A stretch of 35,499 bases of DNA from Gammaproteobacteria bacterium (GTDB lineage Bacteria; Pseudomonadota; Gammaproteobacteria; SZUA-229): the NCBI GenBank assembly GCA_029882355.1, contig JAOUKV010000030.1, positions 1 to 35,499 on the forward strand. Reading direction: 5' to 3'. Below, one piece after another: positions 17,396 to 32,101 of the stretch (positions are counted from its first letter, which is position 1; each line of letters starts with the position of its first letter). The position numbers and the translations under genes were made by a program. The notes beneath the pieces are model-generated. The model saw only the letters and a list, made by a program, of their open reading frames with translations, was not told the origin of the DNA and did no database searches.

Positions 17396-17606
17396 GGGGT
17401 ATCCCTCAATATAGTTAATGTCTGTGAAGAGATGGCAAAGTTCGAACCCATCCGCACACGTGAAAAAATGAGCGCGTATTTTCTTGTTTTTACAGCATTA
17501 AAGCAAATCTATTTGGGGATAGATAAGTTTTACTCGAGTCCCACCTGAAGGGGGAATTTAGATAGAATGCTCAACCACTTAGAAACGATTGATTTATCTG
17601 GATGCG

Positions 17607-18221
17607 ATGACCGAGAACCCTTATCACGAGATACAGGCCAAACTGAGGCTGGCTCAGCCTCTACCCCATACCGCCGACTGGTCAGCCGCGCCAGATTTCA
17701 TCGGCCTGATAATCGAGCATACTCTTCAGGTCAAACCTGGGATCATCGTCGAATGCAGCAGTGGTTTAACCACGCTGGTGCTGGCGCGGTGCTGTCAGAT
17801 CAATGGCAGGGGTAGGGTGATCAGTCTGGAAAATGGTGAAGAATATGCTGAGAAAACGCGCCAGCAGCTGAAAGAATTCGGTCTGGAAGAGTATGCTCAG
17901 GTGCTATTCTCCCCACTGCAGAAAGTGAATCTAGATCGGGACTACGACTGGTACAGCCTGGAAGCGCTGCCGGAAGTGTCGATTGATATGCTGGTGATCG
18001 ATGGCCCGCCGGGTTTTATCCAGAAGAATTCACGTTATCCAGCCTTGCCATTGCTGTTCGATAAATTCTCAGAGCAGGCGAAAGTGTTTTTAGATGATGC
18101 TGGCAGAGAAGATGAGAAGGAGCTGGTGGCGCAGTGGCAGGCTGAGTATTCATGTGTTGAGCTCGAATACCTTGAATTTGAGCGTGGCTGTTCGGTGCTG
18201 GAAATAAATAAAACTAACTAG
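17607..18221 (+). CDS. class I SAM-dependent methyltransferase-like protein
   Basis: About 204 residues. The Rossmann start is IIVECSSGLTTLVLARCC (motif I with SSG in place of GxG), then GRVISLENGEEYAEKTR (acidic residue after strand 2) and SIDMLVIDGPPG (strand 4 to catalytic loop), as in Methyltransf_24-type proteins. The frame is open to 17589; ATG at 17607 (MTENPYHEI) gives a typical beginning, but neither start has a clear ribosome site. Its 3' end overlaps the sulfotransferase-like gene by eight bases in convergent orientation. Substrate is unknown; the neighbours hint at glycan or small-molecule modification. Confidence 0.75.
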   Translation: MTENPYHEIQAKLRLAQPLPHTADWSAAPDFIGLIIEHTLQVKPGIIVECSSGLTTLVLARCCQINGRGRVISLENGEEYAEKTRQQLKEFGLEEYAQVLFSPLQKVNLDRDYDWYSLEALPEVSIDMLVIDGPPGFIQKNSRYPALPLLFDKFSEQAKVFLDDAGREDEKELVAQWQAEYSCVELEYLEFERGCSVLEINKTN

Positions 18222-18744
18222 CGTTATAGCTGGTCTTCCACTCCGCCAGTGCAGCCTCAAGATCACCTTCTGCGTTGATGTATTGCCAGAAGTGCCTGAA
18301 ACCCTCTTCGGTATTTTCCAGGCTGAATACCAGTGTGTGTGTTTTATCTTTCAAAAAAAACGCGATATTGCTTTCGATGGTCTCGATATAGTCGTGAGCT
18401 AATTCAAGCACAGAATTGTTTTCCTGTTCCTGCATCAATATACCTTCACGGTAAGCTTTCATGATGCCAAACTCATTGCGTTTGGCGAAACTTTCTGCCG
18501 TTGTATTTTTATCTCGGCTAAGGTGAACATAAAAAGCGTTGTCGCCATAGACGTTATCCAGTCTACCGAGAATCCAGGACAGGCGATTATCGGCTTCAAT
18601 ATGATTATCTGGATAAGCTAATCGAGATTCACCAATCAATGTGGAACGTGATTCGTGTGCAGAAGAATAATTTGTAATGTGCTGGCAAGCCTTGATGAAA
18701 GTGGTAGAGCCGCAGCGACCAGTATTTAAAATAAAGACGTTCAT
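18214..18744 (-). CDS. sulfotransferase-like protein
   Basis: A 176-residue protein beginning NVFILNTGRCGSTTF, the PAPS 5'-phosphosulfate-binding loop (Arg10, Gly12, Ser13, Thr14) of sulfotransferases. A second region, VYGDNAFYVHLSRDKNTTAESF, fits the 3'-phosphate site, where an Arg/Ser pair is expected. It is short compared with most sulfotransferases (about 250 or more). Its ATG overlaps the stop of the upstream gene (ATGA), so translation is probably coupled. Last gene of a three-gene operon. Confidence 0.75.
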   Translation of the reverse strand: MNVFILNTGRCGSTTFIKACQHITNYSSAHESRSTLIGESRLAYPDNHIEADNRLSWILGRLDNVYGDNAFYVHLSRDKNTTAESFAKRNEFGIMKAYREGILMQEQENNSVLELAHDYIETIESNIAFFLKDKTHTLVFSLENTEEGFRHFWQYINAEGDLEAALAEWKTSYNAS

Positions 18745-20576
18745 TTTAGAAGGGCTTCCCACGTGGCACGATCATTTTTATAGCTGAGAATGGCTTGTAG
18801 AATTTCATCATGGCGTTTTATTTGATTGGCTTCAGAGTTAATTAGCGCATGACCCTGGGAGTTTGCACCAAAGTTATGATCAATATTATTGATAAAATTC
18901 TTAATTAGTTCTCTTGCCTGTGTGGTATCTGCTGTATTGTTCCACCAGCAGTCATCACGATTAAAAACAGATTTTAATATTTCCAGCCTTTCCATAATCT
19001 GATGATGTTTGCTTTCGTATTTTTTATGCAGGCTTTGTTCTGTTTCTATTAACACGGATTCTAATGTGTTTCGATCGAGTGTTGCTTCAGGATAACCGGC
19101 CTGACTTAGCTGTTCAATAGTAAACAACATCACATCACCAAAAAACTGGCGTTCAAATTCATCAGAAAGATCAATCTTTTCCTGCTCTCTGTTGACGCCT
19201 GGCCTGAATTCAGACTCGCCAGTTTCATCGGTAGTGCGTTTGTGCAGCATAGGTAAGTTGGCGGAAACGAAACGGTCACCCAGCTCAGCCTTAATGATGC
19301 GTCCCAGTACCGGCCCGGCCATGCGCAATTTTAGCGTGGCAAAGGAAATAAAATATTTCAAACATTCAGCTTTGAAAGCGTAGTTACCGGTATAAATAGT
19401 TCTGGCGGCGATGGTATCAGACAGAGAGCCTGCGTAATCGAAATAGGTCACCCGTGTTGGATGTTCGCCATCAAAGAATCGATTGAGTTTGCTGGCGAAA
19501 TCATTGAAGCAATCGAGGTGGCTATGTGAGTTTTTTAGTGTGCAGGAATACTGATAAGGCTCGGCAGATTTCTTAAAGCCAAAAAGATCCGCCATATCGT
19601 GATAGGCAGCATCATCGCTAACTTTAGTCTCGCCATGAAAGTGGCATGAGCTTGCCGCATCATTATTGGCTATCTGCTGCAAGAAATCGATCACGTCATT
19701 CTGGAAATTGCCCGCCATCACCGCTGGTGAGACCGGCGGGTCGCCAACCACTTTACCGGTGAGTATGCTGGCATGGCCGCGGCTGAATATTTCATTGAGA
19801 TGGTAGAAGTAGTTAATGGCATAAATATCTTTCTGGCCATCGTCGGTCGCAATCTTGATTTTGAATTCCTGGTCACTGTCGATGAAGTAGAAAATGAGTT
19901 TTTCACCAGAGCTACAGGCGATTTCATCAAGCCGTAAGTAGGCGATATTGCGCGTGATGGCCGCGCCCTTGTGGTAAAAATCATCCGGGTTTTGTTGCAG
20001 GGCATAGCGTCCCAGTATCTGTTGCAGGTTGTGAGCGCTACCACCGAGTTTTTTTATCTGCTCTATTTGTTCCTTGATGCCGAAGTATTCGGTGTCTAAG
20101 CCATCGCTGGAAAATCGTTCGCAGATTTTCTGGTGTTGCTTGATACTATTTTTGTTTCTGGAATCATCAGCAACAATAACGGCGATTTTATTATAGTGTT
20201 GACGATTTTTACCGCCGTATTGATAAAGCTCGCATAGATTGAGTATGCTGTTCAGGCATTGCTGTAGATGTATTGGACGGTCAGCAACAGGAATAACGAT
20301 GTAGAATTTGTATCTAGAATCTTCTGTCTCATCGATATTTTTTTGAATTAATGTTTCATATTCACTAAAGACAGACTGAAAGAGCGTGATTGTTTCTTCA
20401 GCGGGCAGGGTTTTCCATATATTGTTTTCAATAGCAGGAAAAGCGCTTGTGTAAATATTAATGGTGTCTGCAACAGTTTTGCCGCTATCCAGTAGTGTGT
20501 CGAGCAGAGCTAATCGTGCATCACCACGATAGATTTCAAGAAAATGCCTGAGTGCTGGATAATTACCGGTGGTCAT
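18741..20576 (-). CDS. glycosyltransferase-like (GT-A, family 2 type) large protein
   Basis: A 611-residue soluble protein. Residues about 90-330 look like a GT2 catalytic fold: KFYIVIPVADRPIHLQQCL at the nucleotide-binding start, IAVIVADDSRN as the second strand, and FYFIDSDQEF giving a DxD (Asp233/Asp235) for metal and sugar nucleotide. The N-terminal 80 and C-terminal 250 residues are helical and not recognised. It lies 14 bp after the ThDP enzyme gene and overlaps the sulfotransferase-like start by four bases. Sugar specificity is unknown; a role in making a sulfated glycan or glycosylated metabolite is inference from context. Confidence 0.7.
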   Translation of the reverse strand: MTTGNYPALRHFLEIYRGDARLALLDTLLDSGKTVADTINIYTSAFPAIENNIWKTLPAEETITLFQSVFSEYETLIQKNIDETEDSRYKFYIVIPVADRPIHLQQCLNSILNLCELYQYGGKNRQHYNKIAVIVADDSRNKNSIKQHQKICERFSSDGLDTEYFGIKEQIEQIKKLGGSAHNLQQILGRYALQQNPDDFYHKGAAITRNIAYLRLDEIACSSGEKLIFYFIDSDQEFKIKIATDDGQKDIYAINYFYHLNEIFSRGHASILTGKVVGDPPVSPAVMAGNFQNDVIDFLQQIANNDAASSCHFHGETKVSDDAAYHDMADLFGFKKSAEPYQYSCTLKNSHSHLDCFNDFASKLNRFFDGEHPTRVTYFDYAGSLSDTIAARTIYTGNYAFKAECLKYFISFATLKLRMAGPVLGRIIKAELGDRFVSANLPMLHKRTTDETGESEFRPGVNREQEKIDLSDEFERQFFGDVMLFTIEQLSQAGYPEATLDRNTLESVLIETEQSLHKKYESKHHQIMERLEILKSVFNRDDCWWNNTADTTQARELIKNFINNIDHNFGANSQGHALINSEANQIKRHDEILQAILSYKNDRATWEALLK

Positions 20577-20590
20577 TCAGGTTTCGACGT

Positions 20591-22255
20591 CTAGCGTCGA
20601 GATGAATAATTAGGGAAAGCGTCTTTATCAATGATGACTTCGATAAGGTTGATGGCATTAGAAAAATCCGTTGAAGAAAACAGCGTGTCGAGATCTTTTT
20701 TGTTTTCTACCAGTTGATGCTTGATACCAAATGATTTCGCCAGAGTTTTATAATCGGGATTGCTGAAGTCGCAATTGATAAATCGCTCCTGGTATTGCTG
20801 AAACTGGGTTTTCCTGATCAGGCCCATAGTCGAATTATTGAACATGACAATATTGAGTGGAATGTTGTAGTTCACTGCAGTCATTATTTCCATGCAGCAC
20901 ATTTGAAATCCGCCATCGCCAAGAATCGCGAAAGTGGTTTTCTTGTCCGAAAATTGCGCGCCTATGGCTGCCGGTATGGCATGCCCCAGTGATGAAACGC
21001 CGGAGTTAGGATAATAACGATTATTGCTATTAACATTGAAAAAGTTTTGCGCAAAAATAATGTTGTCATCAAATACGGTAATGTTTTCAGGAAAGTTTTC
21101 TTCCAGTTTCTGAAAGAAAGTTTCAATCAGTGTAAACCGAGTTTTAAAAATGTTGGCGTTATTTTCAGTTTCCGGGTTATCAGCATTGCTAACGGGGATG
21201 TATTCCTTGAGTATATGTTCAGCAGAGTAGGTGTTTATATTATCCAGTACAGCCGTCAATACTTCATTGATGTCGCCCTGAATGGCAATGTCTGTCTTGA
21301 ATACTTTTTCAAGTTGACCGTAATCACTATCAACCTGAATAATCTTTTTATCATTGAGTAATTTCTTGTCCCATAAATAGCTGGTGCGTTCATTAAATGC
21401 AGCACCCAGAAATATCACCAGATCGGCAGTTTCTTCGATGTATTTGTAAGCATGGCTATACGAGGTGACACCAAGACTGCCCAGCGATAATTCAGATTGT
21501 TCGCTAATCGCTCCCTTACCTTTAAGGCTGCTGGTGACGGGAATGTTGAATAATTTGCTGAGTTCAGTCAGCCGTGACTGTGCACCTGATTTAATGCAAC
21601 CATAACCGGCAATAATGACCGGGTTCTTCGACTGCTGCATCAGTTTGACAAAGGTATTGACCGGCCCGGAATCCTTGTTGAGCGCACAATGGTGCTTTTC
21701 TGTTTTGATGTTGTCGAGGATCTCATCATCGACCATTTCTTTCTGCACGTTATAGGGGAAGCTCAGCAAGACCGGCCCCGGACTATCCGCTAACAGTATT
21801 TTTGAGGCCTGATTGAGTACGTTTTCCAGATAATCGGTGCGCTCGACCACCTTGTTGTATCTGGTGATGCCTTTAAATAAAGCGCTTTGGTCGATGCTGC
21901 CGCCTTCACCAGAGCTTTCCTGCAAACCACCTTTGCCAAAAATATAGGTCGGTGCTTCACCCGTGATGATGAGCACAGGTTGCTTATCAGCGTAGGCATT
22001 AGCGATGCCGGTGACCAGATTGGTCGCGCCTGGGCCAGCAGTAGTAATACAGGCACCAATCCTTCCCGAGGCACGATTGTAACCCCCTGCCATGAAGGCC
22101 GCGCCCTGTTCATGTTTGGCCAGAATGCTCTGGATGCTGGAATCGTACAGGCTGTCGTATACGGGCAGGATATGTGCACCGGGCATACCAAAGATGGTAT
22201 CGATACCCAGTCGTTCCATATATTTGACAATTAACTCGCTAACTTGAATTTTCAT
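20591..22255 (-). CDS. thiamine-diphosphate-dependent enzyme, acetolactate-synthase-like
   Basis: A 554-residue enzyme with the three ThDP domains. The N-terminal domain has FGMPGAHILPVYD and the activating Glu49 in KHEQGAAFMAGGY; a central domain follows. The C-terminal domain has GDGGFQMCCMEI and, about 27 residues on, FNN: the GDG...NN motif for Mg-ThDP. The family includes acetolactate synthase, oxalyl-CoA decarboxylase and sulfoacetaldehyde acetyltransferase. No IlvN-type regulatory subunit is adjacent, so a biosynthetic role other than branched-chain amino acids is likely. First gene of the operon with the glycosyltransferase-like and sulfotransferase-like genes. Confidence 0.88.
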   Translation of the reverse strand: MKIQVSELIVKYMERLGIDTIFGMPGAHILPVYDSLYDSSIQSILAKHEQGAAFMAGGYNRASGRIGACITTAGPGATNLVTGIANAYADKQPVLIITGEAPTYIFGKGGLQESSGEGGSIDQSALFKGITRYNKVVERTDYLENVLNQASKILLADSPGPVLLSFPYNVQKEMVDDEILDNIKTEKHHCALNKDSGPVNTFVKLMQQSKNPVIIAGYGCIKSGAQSRLTELSKLFNIPVTSSLKGKGAISEQSELSLGSLGVTSYSHAYKYIEETADLVIFLGAAFNERTSYLWDKKLLNDKKIIQVDSDYGQLEKVFKTDIAIQGDINEVLTAVLDNINTYSAEHILKEYIPVSNADNPETENNANIFKTRFTLIETFFQKLEENFPENITVFDDNIIFAQNFFNVNSNNRYYPNSGVSSLGHAIPAAIGAQFSDKKTTFAILGDGGFQMCCMEIMTAVNYNIPLNIVMFNNSTMGLIRKTQFQQYQERFINCDFSNPDYKTLAKSFGIKHQLVENKKDLDTLFSSTDFSNAINLIEVIIDKDAFPNYSSRR

Positions 22256-22419: not shown

Positions 22420-23028
22420 TTAGTTATCAGACAAGGCTTTCTGGATCAGGGGAATTAAGGGTTCAGGTAGTTTTATGCTGCCAGATAATGCGAATTGTTG
22501 AGCCGCTTCACTCATTTTGCGCCAGGTCTTGCGAATAATATCAATCCATTTGGCTTCATCGTACTCAGGGTGCTTTTCAGCGAATGCCAGCATGTAGTGT
22601 TCAATAAAGACCAGGCCAGCTATATTTTCCAGAAGTTGTGTGTCAGGATTTTTCTTCAGTGCTTTTTTACCCACTGCCTGTTTGACCCTTTCAAGACTGT
22701 CTTCAGCATAACCCGTCTGCTTCATGAGGGCAGCAAGCGTATCCGCATGGAAGGTATAAAGTGCGGTGCGCCACTGGTGGTAGCCTTTACGATCCATCGG
22801 ATAATCGCTACGGGGAGATTTCCAGCGTTGTATATGCTGAGCCTGAATAGCTAACTTCATGACATCGTCAGTGTCAGGGGCGAAACGTTCCAGCATGTCA
22901 GACATATGATGAGAATATAATAATTCCTTCGGCCATTCCTTGTTGTCAGAATCGATCACTTTATTTGGATCTTCGCTATTAGCTTGATCGATAAGGTCTC
23001 TTGCTTGCTCAAAGTCGGCTTGTGACAT
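22420..23028 (-). CDS. DUF4202 family protein
   Basis: A 202-residue soluble helical protein. Family hallmarks are QANSEDPN near the start, PKELLYSHHMSDMLERFAPD, then AQHIQRWKSPRSDYPMDRKGY and WRTALYTFHAD. The His residues and conserved Arg/Asp pattern resemble an HD-like helical fold, though catalysis has not been established to my knowledge. It is monocistronic, with no strong ribosome site visible. Confidence 0.85.
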   Translation of the reverse strand: MSQADFEQARDLIDQANSEDPNKVIDSDNKEWPKELLYSHHMSDMLERFAPDTDDVMKLAIQAQHIQRWKSPRSDYPMDRKGYHQWRTALYTFHADTLAALMKQTGYAEDSLERVKQAVGKKALKKNPDTQLLENIAGLVFIEHYMLAFAEKHPEYDEAKWIDIIRKTWRKMSEAAQQFALSGSIKLPEPLIPLIQKALSDN

Positions 23029-23163: not shown

Positions 23164-24114
23164 ATGAAAAAAATTGCTCTCAGCATAACTATTGAAGAAG
23201 GTCTCAGGGCCCTGGATACATCACTGGTTATCACCGTGGCACAAAATGCGATGATTTCAGCACGGCAATCAGAAATTGAAAAAACTGTTGTTAGGGAATT
23301 TGATGCGCTAGGTACAGCGCTGCCGGGAGCAATTGCAAGAAACACCATGATCCAGCCACTGCAGGGCAGTGTAATAGACCTATTTGTGCTGTTAAAACCA
23401 GAGCGTGGTCAAATGAATACGCCTGAAGAGTTGATGAGACACTTACAGGAGGCACTTGTTACTCAATATCCTGATGCTGTTATCGCCGCTGACGGAAGAT
23501 CAATCATTGTGGCATATACAGAATTTATATTTCACGTAGTACCCAGTTTTTATAGAAAAAACAAAGGTTATATTGTGGCTGATGCAAAGAAGCAACAATG
23601 GATTAAAACCAACCCAACCATTCATTACTACGCGCTGGATGATGAAAATCATAAGCAGAGGGGTCTATTGTTACCAGTAGTGAGAATGACCAGATACTGG
23701 AATGAATGCAATGGTTCATTATTCAATAACTATTATCTTGAATTACTGATTAAAGAAACACTAAGTGAAATAAAAGTTACCTCATATGTCCAGGCGATAA
23801 AATACTTTTATAAAAAAGCGATACGTATGGTGGTGTTCACCATAGATGACCCTGCTGATAATGGTAAACAGATGGACGGCCTAAAAGATATAAATAAAAT
23901 GCTTGAAGCAATGCAAGTGTTTAGAGATTGCCATGAGCATATAGTTAAAGCTGAGAAATATGAAGAAGAGGGCAATCTAGTTTTAGCCTATAAAGAATTC
24001 GGCAAGATTTTTGGAGGCTATTTCCATAGCTATGTTGATATGATGTCCAGAAAACTGGATGCTAATGGAATTACTGGTGTGGAAGCGTTGAGAATACTCC
24101 GGGATGCAACCTAA
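23164..24114 (+). CDS. CD-NTase/SMODS-fold nucleotidyltransferase homologue with degenerate active site
   Basis: A 316-residue protein with the layout of CBASS-type CD-NTases. The GS loop region is PGAIARNTMIQPL (residues 54-65), the metal motif region is QGSVIDLFVLL (67-77), and the third-acid strand is FHVVPSF (123-129) before WIKTNP. The OAS1-C-like helical domain follows (VRMTRYWNECNG, later AYKEFGKIFGGYFHSY). Family consensus would read G-S, S-D-x-D and D-VVP. Here it is Gly-Ala56, Val70-Ile-Asp72 and His124, so two of three metal ligands and the GS serine are gone. It is probably not a cyclic-nucleotide synthase; a binding or decoy role is possible. No CBASS effector lies beside it. Confidence 0.78.
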   Translation: MKKIALSITIEEGLRALDTSLVITVAQNAMISARQSEIEKTVVREFDALGTALPGAIARNTMIQPLQGSVIDLFVLLKPERGQMNTPEELMRHLQEALVTQYPDAVIAADGRSIIVAYTEFIFHVVPSFYRKNKGYIVADAKKQQWIKTNPTIHYYALDDENHKQRGLLLPVVRMTRYWNECNGSLFNNYYLELLIKETLSEIKVTSYVQAIKYFYKKAIRMVVFTIDDPADNGKQMDGLKDINKMLEAMQVFRDCHEHIVKAEKYEEEGNLVLAYKEFGKIFGGYFHSYVDMMSRKLDANGITGVEALRILRDAT

Positions 24115-27637: not shown

Positions 27638-28901
27638 GGAACCTTCCCCAGTTTTGAACACATCCTTTGTTATCATTATTTCATTTAACCCATTATTACT
27701 TCATAATCGTTTGGCGTCAAATAGTCTAATGACGAATGAATTCTTTTTGAGTTATAAAACCTAACGTACTCAATAATGACGGCTCGTAATTCACCTTCAG
27801 TTGTATATTCATTTTTATGCACTCTCTCAGCTTTAAACTGATGAAAGAATGATTCCATTTCTGCATTATCGTTCATTATGCCTTTACGATTTAAACTTTG
27901 TATTACACCCTGTTTTTTTAACCAGTCCCTGTATTTATAAGCAACATATTCAGAACCTCTATCAGAATGAAAATACAATCCCGATTGAACCAGTCGTTTA
28001 CTCGCTGCGCGTTTAAATGCAGTGAGTGATAGATCAACATTGCGCTTTACCGATAATGACCAGCCCACGATCTTACGTGAAAACTTATCCATAATCACAG
28101 CCAGATACCGCCACTCTTTGTTTGCCCGCAAGTAGGTTACATCCCCGACCCAAATCTGATTCGGCCCCGTAGCTTCGATTTTATGTATCTTGTTACCAAT
28201 ACTGGCATAGAAGCGATCATGTGCAGTATGGTTATTGTAGATACACGCACAGCGGGCTTTTAGATTACATTCTTGCATGAGCCTGGCTATTCGATTCTTT
28301 CCTGTAATGGTACCTTGTTGTTTCAGCAGCTGGTGTATTTTAGGGCTGCCGTAGATGCCATTGTACTCGTCAAATAACTTATGCACGTTTTGCTTTAGCT
28401 CTATATCGCGCATAGCATGGTCTGATTGTCCTCGCCTGCGCCACGAATAATAGCCTTCACGCGTGACATCGTATACATCACACAGCGTCTTGAGTTTGTA
28501 ATCATCGCGTTTCGAGTTTATGAATTCGAAGATTTCTTTTTTCGATCTGAACAGAATTGGATGCTTTTTTTTAGAATGTCATGCTTAATTAAGAGCTCAT
28601 CATGCTCTTTTTCAAGTTTCCGTAAGCGTTTTAGTTCGCTTTTCTCTTCTGCATCTAGCGTGATTTTATCTTTCTTTGCCATGATTATTCCGTCGTTAAG
28701 TTCTTTCTTCCAACGGTATAACATTACGGGGTGAATATCGAGCACATGAGCAACATCGCTGGCTTTTACCCTGGGTAATTCTCCTAATGCGACAGCAGTG
28801 GCTTTAAAGTCATCACCATACGTACCATATTTTGTTTTTCTAGCCATGTAACACCTCCAATAGTTTTAAAATTAGATGTGTTCAAAACTGGGGGAGGTTC
28901 C
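27638..28901 (-). mobile_element. complete IS3-family insertion sequence (1264 bp)
   Basis: The ends are 27-bp inverted repeats starting GGAACCT and running through CCCCAGTTTTGAACACATC, with one mismatch (position 8). A 3-bp TAT duplication flanks it. It carries overlapping orfA and orfB with an A-AAA-AAG slippery site between them. The ends lack the 5'-TG usual for IS3 elements. Intact DDE residues and matching ends suggest a recent and possibly active insertion into attC site 5. Confidence 0.95.
27685..28847 (-). CDS. IS3-family transposase OrfAB (programmed -1 frameshift product)
   Basis: OrfA runs from 28847 to 28518 (109 aa): a Transposase_8 helix-turn-helix (KASDVAHVLDIHPVMLYRWKKE) and a leucine-zipper-like coiled coil. 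OrfB continues in the -1 frame from the heptamer at 28536-28542. It reads EIFEFINSKRDDYKL and SWRRRGQSDHAM, then joins the frame annotated from the ATG at 28413. The DDE domain shows Asp in WVGDVTYLRA, Asp in HSDRGSEY and Glu in NDNAEMESFFHQFK. OrfB stops at 27685. OrfAB would catalyse IS circle formation and insertion; OrfA alone is usually a repressor. Confidence 0.93.
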
Positions 28902-30790: not shown

Positions 30791-30838
30791 GAGCGTTAAG
30801 CATGTTCCAGTACTCACTTTACACCTTGGAGGTGCGTG

Positions 30839-32101
30839 ATGAAAGCATTCAAAGTAGATGACTTTGCCGCATTAGTCGGTATCGACTGGGCAGACAAAAA
30901 GCACGATGTCTGTGAGATGCCCATTGATACCAAGCACTATCAGTTCTCTGTCATATCCAGCAAGCCTCAAGCATTACATGATTGGGCGATCGGTTTAAAG
31001 AAACGTTATCCGAATAAAAAAATTGCTGTCGCCTGTGAATTAAAAAAAGGGCCTCTAATATTTGCACTTAGCAAATACGAACATATCACTCTCTTTCCAA
31101 TCAACCCCTCCACTGTCGCCAAATACCGCAAAGCATTTTCAAACAGTGGCGCTAAAAACGATCCCAGTGATGCGCTGATCCAAACCGAGATATTAACGCT
31201 TCATATGGATAAATTAGTCGCTATCGTGCCAGAGTCACCTGACATACGGGCATTGGCTCAGTTGGTCGAGTATCGGCGAAAGCTGGTTCAGGACAGAGTG
31301 GATTTATCCAATAAGGTGACGGCCACATTAAAAAACTACTACCCACAAGTGCTTGATTGGTTTAAGGAAAAAGACACGGTGATATTCTGCGATTTTATTA
31401 CTCAATGGCCTACGTTGGCGGAGGCTAAGAAGGCTCGTAAGTTAACCTTGTTGAAATTTTTCAATCTCCACAACTCTCGTTATCCTTCGGTAAATGAAAA
31501 ATGAATAGAAGAAATCAAAGCGGCATGCCCACTCACCGATGATACCGGTGTGATTGAACCCAACGCTATGCTGGTAGAGGTACTCATTGCTCAGATGAAG
31601 GTGCTTCTTATTGGCATTGAGAATCTCGATAAAGCGATTAAAGATCGTTACCAATCACAAGCCGATAAAAGAATCTTTGATAGCTTCCCTGGTGCAGGCG
31701 CTCAGTTAGCACCACGTCTTCTTGTTGCCTTTGGTGTTAACCGTGATCGTTATGATATAGCCGATGAGGTACAGAAATATGTCGGTGTAGCTCCAGTTAT
31801 CGAGCAAAGCGGCCAGAAAAAATGGGTGCACTGGCGTTATAGCTGTCCAACCTTCCTACGACAAACTTTTGTTGAATGGGCTGGGCTATCAATACGGTAT
31901 TCATTTTGGGCTAAAGCCTATTACGATCAACAAATAAGTAAGGGCAAACCTCATAACACGGTGATACGAGCATTAGCATTCAAATGGATTCGAATTGCAT
32001 TTAGATGCTGGAAAAACAATACATCATACGATGAAACAACTTACCTTAATGCATTGAAAAAACGTGGCTCGCCGCTATTGAAATTTATGGTATCAGAGTA
32101 A
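30839..32101 (+). pseudogene. IS110-family DEDD recombinase interrupted by an in-frame TGA
   Basis: ATG at 30839 follows GGAGGT by five bases. The reading frame would give 420 residues but is cut by TGA at 31502-31504 after ...SVNEK. The same frame continues with IEEIKAACPLTDD to 32101, so this is one nonsense change (CGA or TGG to TGA). The N-terminal RuvC-like domain shows GIDWADKKHD (Asp16), ACELKKG and KNDPSDA. The C-terminal Transposase_20 part has DSFPGAGAQLAPRLL and QSGQKKWVHWRYSC with the candidate nucleophile Ser. Without readthrough the product lacks the serine domain and cannot act alone. Confidence 0.9.

Follow-up and report, generated by a model that had tools for sequence, protein, structure and literature searches.

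A conserved module of a ThDP enzyme and a GT-A-fold protein, with a probable sulfotransferase, in dsrA- and soxB-bearing bacteria

The window analyzed here, a 35,499-nucleotide (nt) stretch of contig JAOUKV010000030.1 from a gammaproteobacterium, carries a compact set of three minus-strand genes on which a fourth gene converges (all window coordinates are given on its forward strand). The first gene (20591..22255, −) encodes a 554-residue, carboligase-like enzyme dependent on thiamine diphosphate (ThDP), which matches all three TPP_enzyme domains of Pfam (N, M, and C). A gap of 14 bp separates it from the gene of a 611-residue GT-A-fold protein (18741..20576, −), probably a nucleotide-sugar enzyme of an uncharacterized family, with helical regions at both termini and the motifs D233xD235 and H445xR447. 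The third gene (18214..18744, −) encodes a 176-residue protein with a predicted sulfotransferase (ST) fold, hereafter the small ST. On the plus strand, a gene with a profile match to the S-adenosylmethionine methyltransferase family Methyltransf_24 (17607..18221, +) converges on the set and overlaps the 3′ end of the small ST gene by 8 bp. For the methyltransferase, whose open reading frame (ORF) opens with TTG at 17589, the ATG at 17607 is the likelier start. The small ST ORF as listed spans 18214-18762 (−; 182 residues). Its start is most likely the ATG at 18744, within ...AAATGAACGTC..., which gives 176 residues, not 182, and a 4-bp ATGA overlap with the 611-residue protein gene; M1 of the MN(V/I)FILN opening is nearly invariant in the alignment of 23 small ST sequences. 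The coordinates thereby bear out the layout described in an earlier sequence-only reading of this DNA, with its 14-bp gap, 4-bp overlap, and converging methyltransferase gene. The arrangement goes beyond chance, because the same order recurs in other genomes. All four proteins appear to be soluble: in none does the mean hydropathy over 19 residues exceed 1.38, and the hydropathy scan found no membrane-span-like stretch in the module's proteins. Promoter- and terminator-like sites at the locus are no more numerous than in shuffled sequence.

Conservation of the locus was assessed on the best 80 of 102 relatives of the 611-residue protein found in genome contigs. By tblastn, sequence of the ThDP gene is present at 62 of these 80 loci, the small ST at 25, an alternative partner of about 246 residues at 36, and the methyltransferase at 16; ORF-based counts are lower (60, 23, 35, and 14, respectively), since genes cut by contig ends or gaps are missed. 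Judged by ORFs, the ThDP gene ends within 1.5 kb upstream of the 611-residue protein gene in 56 of the 75 loci with at least 600 nt of upstream sequence; at one locus (L050) it is in two pieces. Among the 18 genomes without a ThDP gene at the locus, 15 have a copy of 58-68% identity on another contig, well separated from paralogs at around 30%, and none was found in the other three. In L097, the contigs of the two genes overlap at their ends, so that the genes are probably adjacent. The gene-neighborhood comparison proposed in the sequence-only reading thus came out in favor of linkage. Furthermore, co-occurrence was examined in 370 genomes of the class with at least 90% completeness, with the ThDP gene counted at E 1e-130 or better. 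The 611-residue protein gene was tallied in 29 genomes, from which G181 (two short fragments with stops) and G344 and G374 (weak partial matches) were excluded, leaving 26 with a full-length gene; the ThDP gene is likewise found in 26. Both genes occur in 25 genomes, each alone in one, and neither in 343 (Fisher p 1.5e-36; this p-value and those for lifestyle below ignore kinship). Collectively, the ThDP enzyme and the GT-A protein form a conserved module of linked and co-occurring genes.

The ThDP enzyme is most similar, among sequences with solved structures, to BbmA (PDB 8x3x; E 1.2e-80) and to acetohydroxyacid synthases (AHAS; E 1.1e-64). Three features are invariant in 32 aligned ThDP sequences: E49, a glutamate of the catalytic type, G446-D447-G448, and R290. 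In the PDB alignment, R290 lies opposite an AHAS arginine, which we take to bind the carboxylate of the acceptor, and its invariance therefore fits a keto-acid acceptor. The best AHAS score of the enzyme, against the NCBIfam model of biosynthetic AHAS, is 387.8 bits at a cut-off of 538.35, and the enzyme falls below the cut-off in every one of the 25 models listed of 51 matching NCBIfam models. Membership in AHAS is not claimed: the domains and the catalytic glutamate are present, but no AHAS equivalog cut-off is reached among the models listed.

The 611-residue protein was modeled from 54 sequences with a mean predicted local distance difference test score (pLDDT) of 91.3, and the predicted fold is GT-A. 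As had been noted from the sequence, the GT-A motifs lie only in the middle of the protein: the match begins at about residue 88, four helices precede it (residues 7-80), and five more close the chain (471-610). Foldseek matches of the model include hyaluronan synthase, TarP, and mannosyl-3-phosphoglycerate synthase. The GT75 pyranose mutase MtdL fills the top six VIA-align rows (Z 17.0-17.8, 289-295 residues aligned, root-mean-square deviation (rmsd) 3.0-3.1); GalNAc-T2 and chondroitin polymerase come next with Z 16.5. The motifs D233xD235 and H445xR447 are invariant in 54 of 54 family sequences. In MtdL, the metal ligands are Asp109-Asp111 and His287 with Arg289 close by (PMC9937993). H445 of the 611-residue protein may likewise be a metal ligand. 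Besides its catalytic Asp260, MtdL has an autoglycosylated residue, Arg159.

Sequence profiles place the protein less firmly. The family profile retrieved neither MtdL nor any other meaningful match from PDB sequences up to E 10. The window protein does not match the Pfam family RGP at E values up to 1, and RGP is absent among the 25 families listed of the 31 that match the 54 members. GT75 membership was considered and is not claimed; the fold and the metal pattern agree, and the sequence match to RGP fails. TIGR04440 ("TIGR00180 family glycosyltransferase") is the sole NCBIfam match of the window protein (E 2.5e-4, residues 91-253); it is matched by 5 of the 54 members at E ≤0.01, and MftF by 6. 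With Glycos_transf_2 of Pfam, the score is 13.3 bits against a cut-off of 23.3, and a match at E ≤0.1 (best E 0.0024) is found for 6 of the 54 members; GT2 membership is not claimed either. No match was found in a plasmid collection. Of the "glycosyltransferase" label in the sequence-only reading, the GT-A fold stands; glycosyltransferase in the strict sense is unproven, as the nearest solved fold is that of a GT75 pyranose/furanose mutase. Its GT-A fold and kept metal motif, with R418 opposite the proposed base of MtdL in a by-eye alignment, make it in all likelihood a transferase or mutase that acts on nucleotide sugars and belongs to a family not yet described.

The small ST, modeled from 23 sequences (pLDDT 91.5), is best matched by the ST domain of CurM (4gbm; Z 14.2, 163 residues aligned, rmsd 2.7). 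The olefin-synthase ST follows (Z 13.5) and then tyrosylprotein sulfotransferases, and rows 1-33 of the 50 VIA-align rows listed are all sulfotransferases (Z 14.2 to 10.5). R10, S13, E31, R77, and S85 are kept in all 23 sequences. R10 and S13 belong to the P-loop, and R77 and S85 are 8 apart, which we take to be the spacing of the motif that binds the 3′-phosphate of 3′-phosphoadenosine-5′-phosphosulfate (PAPS). The profile of the family finds nothing meaningful among PDB sequences up to E 1. By its predicted fold and PAPS-site-like residues, the protein is probably a PAPS-dependent sulfotransferase, in line with the sulfotransferase-like character first suggested for it.

Different proteins occupy the third position of the module. 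By tblastn, the partner is the small ST at 25 of the 80 loci, the protein of about 246 residues, encoded on the opposite strand, at 36, and an AMP-binding-like protein at 8; at 11 loci none is in view. One of the 36 (L091) has a 37-residue fragment, with the full gene elsewhere in that genome. Sulfotransfer_3 (PF13469) is matched at E ≤0.1 by 15 of 15 scanned members of the ~246-residue family (best 7.5e-11); the one member with a listed score reaches 14.5 bits at a cut-off of 27. A profile-profile comparison gives no similarity between the small ST and the ~246-residue protein, and the profile of the latter finds nothing meaningful among PDB sequences up to E 1. The two occur together at none of the 80 loci. 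For the AMP-binding-like protein, the one member scanned has a PF00501 match below the cut-off. Five of the 11 partnerless loci end within 155 nt of the 611-residue protein gene; in the genomes of the other six, the small ST is found elsewhere in one and the ~246-residue protein in four.

The choice of partner follows the tree of the 611-residue protein, which was built by a quick method with labels from the ORF counts, including the window and omitting L032, where the gene is broken. All 23 small-ST rows (the window and 22 loci) fall within a set of 30, and all 35 rows with the ~246-residue protein within a set of 45, both with an SH-aLRT support of 100. Thiobacillaceae and Gallionellaceae are present in both sets. 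Copies that lie off the locus or at contig ends fall in the expected places, the small ST of L035, L045, and L047 in the small-ST set and the ~246-residue protein of L048, L066, L081, L082, and L091 in the other. The methyltransferase gene, 0.5 to 5.4 kb past the 611-residue protein gene, is present at 16 of the 25 small-ST loci and at none of the other 55 (tblastn). This pattern is most simply read as sulfation being part of the pathway, with a separate sulfotransferase for each GT-A subfamily. That two unlike sulfotransferases alternate between the GT-A subfamilies is in itself an argument for sulfation as the purpose of the pathway.

Several single loci deserve mention. At L144 (5670-8294) the ThDP gene adjoins the alternative sulfotransferase and the 611-residue protein gene is absent there, and at L141 (196-4723) the ThDP gene sits past both of the others; parts of the module thus tend to remain together through rearrangement. 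A Sulfurimicrobium genome (G430) has two copies of the module (L061, 6153-11056; L146, 7758-12143) whose downstream partners look exchanged; the 611-residue protein of L061 is placed next to the midpoint root that parts the two branches of the tree, a position that a recombinant gene could take. In L013/L032 (G003:C128), from a close relative, the 611-residue protein gene is broken by stops, whereas the sulfotransferase gene and as much of the ThDP gene as is visible are open; this is either a decayed copy or an assembly error. The module in L104, a metagenome bin titled Bordetella parapertussis, is close to betaproteobacterial bins in the tree, and the bin is probably mislabeled. At L154 (3260-5175; G166), a gene that by eye resembles UDP-sugar dehydrogenase lies next to the methyltransferase gene close to the module, and the two overlap.

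The distribution of the module points to sulfur metabolism. In the 370 genomes, dsrA is found in 124, soxB in 161, and RuBisCO in 186. The 26 carriers of the 611-residue protein gene all have dsrA (p 6.6e-14) and soxB (p 1.2e-10), and 25 have RuBisCO (p 2e-7). The link to dsrA persists within soxB-positive genomes (26 of 26 carriers against 88 of 135 others, p 4.9e-5); within dsrA-positive genomes, soxB (p 0.09) and RuBisCO (p 0.10) add little. Counted by families, with labels entered by hand, all 15 carrier families are among the 56 dsrA families of at least 167 (p 1.9e-8). The presence of soxB in every carrier speaks for sulfur oxidation. In addition, genera or species that we take to be sulfur oxidizers (e.g. 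Thiobacillus, Sulfuricella, Sedimenticola, Thiohalomonas, Venteria, and Thiosymbion) appear in 17 of the 80 record titles; most remaining locus records are proteobacterial bins.

Genes of adenosine-5′-phosphosulfate (APS) metabolism lie beside some modules. The APS kinase gene cysC is directly upstream of the 611-residue protein gene in L035, around 7 kb off in L087, and on the opposite strand immediately beyond the ST in L140, and aprA is near the module in L016, L153, L091, and L085, with aprB too in three of the four. L085 and L091 are closely related. In the 935 kb of L029-L108, around 0.3 of a genome, a single-copy gene should turn up about 0.3 times; two cysC and two aprA genes were seen. 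These neighbors are only suggestive of a link. APS is both the precursor of PAPS and a main-line intermediate in Sox/reverse-Dsr sulfur oxidizers.

With intermediate confidence, we propose that in sulfur oxidizers of the Sox/reverse-Dsr type the module encodes a cytoplasmic pathway whose product is a sulfated glycoside or glycoconjugate. The ThDP enzyme would make an acyloin or acetohydroxy acid by coupling the two-carbon unit of pyruvate with an acceptor that is probably a keto acid. The GT-A enzyme would then add a common nucleotide sugar to this product, the sulfotransferase would pass sulfate from PAPS onto it, and the neighboring methyltransferase might methylate it in some lineages. The product may be a sulfated glycoside of low molecular weight or, alternatively, a carrier-bound sulfated sugar; the lack of a polymerase or flippase among the inspected neighbors favors a small molecule over a polysaccharide. 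That sulfation belongs to the pathway is its best-supported part. The earlier suggestion that the set could make a modified glycan or small molecule is thus supported, and neither the linkage nor the structure comparison refuted any of it; the confinement to dsrA- and soxB-positive genomes and the alternative sulfotransferase were beyond the reach of that reading. It is possible, though rather unlikely in our estimate, that the product is a hitherto unknown sulfated glycoside of low molecular weight with a direct part in Sox/reverse-Dsr sulfur oxidation, in which it might carry or store reduced sulfur or act as its surface agent; sulfate would then be drawn from the APS of the same metabolism, and the two GT-A subfamilies would each have their own sulfotransferase.

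Several observations weigh against this proposal. Three of its elements, namely the ThDP reaction, the acceptor used in it, and the sequence of steps, are inferred. No Pfam sulfotransferase model matches any of the 23 small ST members at E 0.1, and the small ST of the window has no credible match to any Pfam family. An AMP-binding-like protein takes the sulfotransferase position at 8 of 80 loci, and of five genomes of this type tested four are without either sulfotransferase (the fifth has the ~246-residue protein); G060, with a partnerless locus, has neither sulfotransferase genome-wide. The dsrA model is blind to the difference between oxidative and reductive Dsr, and one of the 26 carriers (G290) owes its dsrA match to a fragment at a contig end that scores below the cut-off. 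The 611-residue protein gene is absent from 98 of the 124 dsrA-positive genomes and is thus an accessory that reverse Dsr does not require. There is no enrichment of APS kinase: it is above the cut-off in 23 of 26 carriers (three have none) against 18 of 20 non-carriers, hand-picked from 76 with dsrA, soxB, and RuBisCO. One carrier (G008), rated 100% complete, has the small ST and no APS kinase above the cut-off.

Other explanations assign the module or its parts differently. The GT-A protein might add a sugar to a surface or sulfur-globule polysaccharide that is then sulfated and helps to hold or coat elemental sulfur. The confinement of the gene to dsrA- and soxB-positive genomes in the sample would suit such a role, and so would the coat of protein and polysaccharide described for the globules of one sulfur oxidizer, Chlorobaculum tepidum (PMC6398422). 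We nevertheless judge it somewhat improbable. No polymerase or flippase was seen among the 10 of 24 recurring neighbor families inspected (cluster counts mix in opposite-frame ORFs, and a mixed ABC-ATPase cluster occurs at 6 loci, within 5 kb at 3), the proteins of the module are without membrane-span-like stretches, and the comparison organism lies outside the sampled genomes and belongs to another phylum. The near-exceptionless pairing of the ThDP and GT-A genes is also what one would expect if one enzyme supplied the donor of the other. The ThDP enzyme could thus resemble YerE of yersiniose synthesis in taking a keto-sugar nucleotide as its substrate; the resulting branched-chain sugar would be transferred by the GT-A protein and sulfated by the sulfotransferase. 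The UDP-sugar-dehydrogenase-like gene beside the methyltransferase gene of L154 would fit at one locus, but no sugar-nucleotide gene was recognized among the 10 inspected families, and the invariant R290 suits a keto-acid acceptor, so that we hold this route to be distinctly unlikely.

It is also unlikely, to a similar degree, that the 611-residue protein is a metal-dependent pyranose/furanose mutase like MtdL, which would supply a furanosyl nucleotide and would not be a glycosyltransferase. Its six best structural rows are MtdL, the match extends into the C-terminal helices, and the DxD and HxR pattern resembles the MtdL metal site; however, ordinary glycosyltransferases score just 0.5 to 1.3 Z units lower, no RGP match is seen, and the MtdL base D260 lies opposite the invariant R418 in an ungapped by-eye alignment. 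As for the short protein, shikimate and adenylate kinases in its Foldseek list, shikimate, sugar, and guanylate kinases in its VIA-align list, and the missing Pfam sulfotransferase matches would allow a P-loop kinase-like enzyme with nothing sulfated. We consider this highly improbable, for the first kinase appears at VIA-align rank 34 (Z 10.5, 138 aligned) behind sulfotransferases only, R77 and S85 have the PAPS-type spacing, and the other branch of the tree uses a protein that Pfam relates to Sulfotransfer_3. A pathway to a sulfated glycoside or glycoconjugate remains our preferred reading.

Other genes of the window lie outside the module. A DUF4202 protein (22420-23028, −; Pfam E 2.5e-70) is encoded directly upstream of the ThDP gene, and a gene resembling cGAS/DncV-like nucleotidyltransferases (CD-NTases) lies at 23164-24114 (+), with the PADLOC Cyclase model matched at E 1.8e-53 and CBASS_cyclase_b below the cut-off. 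In the latter protein, the usual second aspartate of the active-site pair seems lost (GSVIDLF), and no CBASS effector was recognized by eye beside the gene. Both were dropped as module members, as they stand beside it only in the nearest relatives (BLAST; L009-L011, the genomes of L029-L031). In the right part of the window, ORFs at 27685-28413 and 30836-32101 resemble by eye IS3-type and IS110-type transposases, respectively.

In the open literature searched, no description was found of the gene set, its two sulfotransferase versions, or its tie to dsrA. The parts belong to known superfamilies, and their combination is apparently new as far as this searching shows. To our knowledge, the storage of reduced sulfur and its passage to the reverse-Dsr machinery are only partly understood. 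A module that tracks dsrA and soxB, ends in a sulfotransferase, and lies beside APS genes in some genomes would offer a concrete lead, with a predicted metabolite, a predicted isotope label, and defined genes.

Each protein of the module can be set beside a known system. The 611-residue protein scores 20.8 bits with TIGR04440 at a cut-off of 70. It shares with MtdL the GT-A fold and a resemblance of D233xD235/H445xR447 to the metal site D109-D111/H287xR289; unlike MtdL, it has additional N-terminal helices and, in the by-eye alignment, R418 opposite the proposed base Asp260. The small ST resembles the CurM and olefin-synthase ST domains (4gbm and 4gox) in fold, with 18-21% identity over 155-163 residues, but it is a stand-alone protein of 176 residues and not part of a polyketide or olefin synthase. 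The ThDP enzyme shares with BbmA and AHAS the three-domain family, the catalytic-type glutamate, and the acceptor-side arginine. It differs from AHAS by a threonine opposite the tryptophan of the yeast enzyme (W586 in what we take to be its numbering) in a by-eye alignment, and from both BbmA and AHAS in that here the ThDP enzyme is genetically tied to the gene of a GT-A protein.

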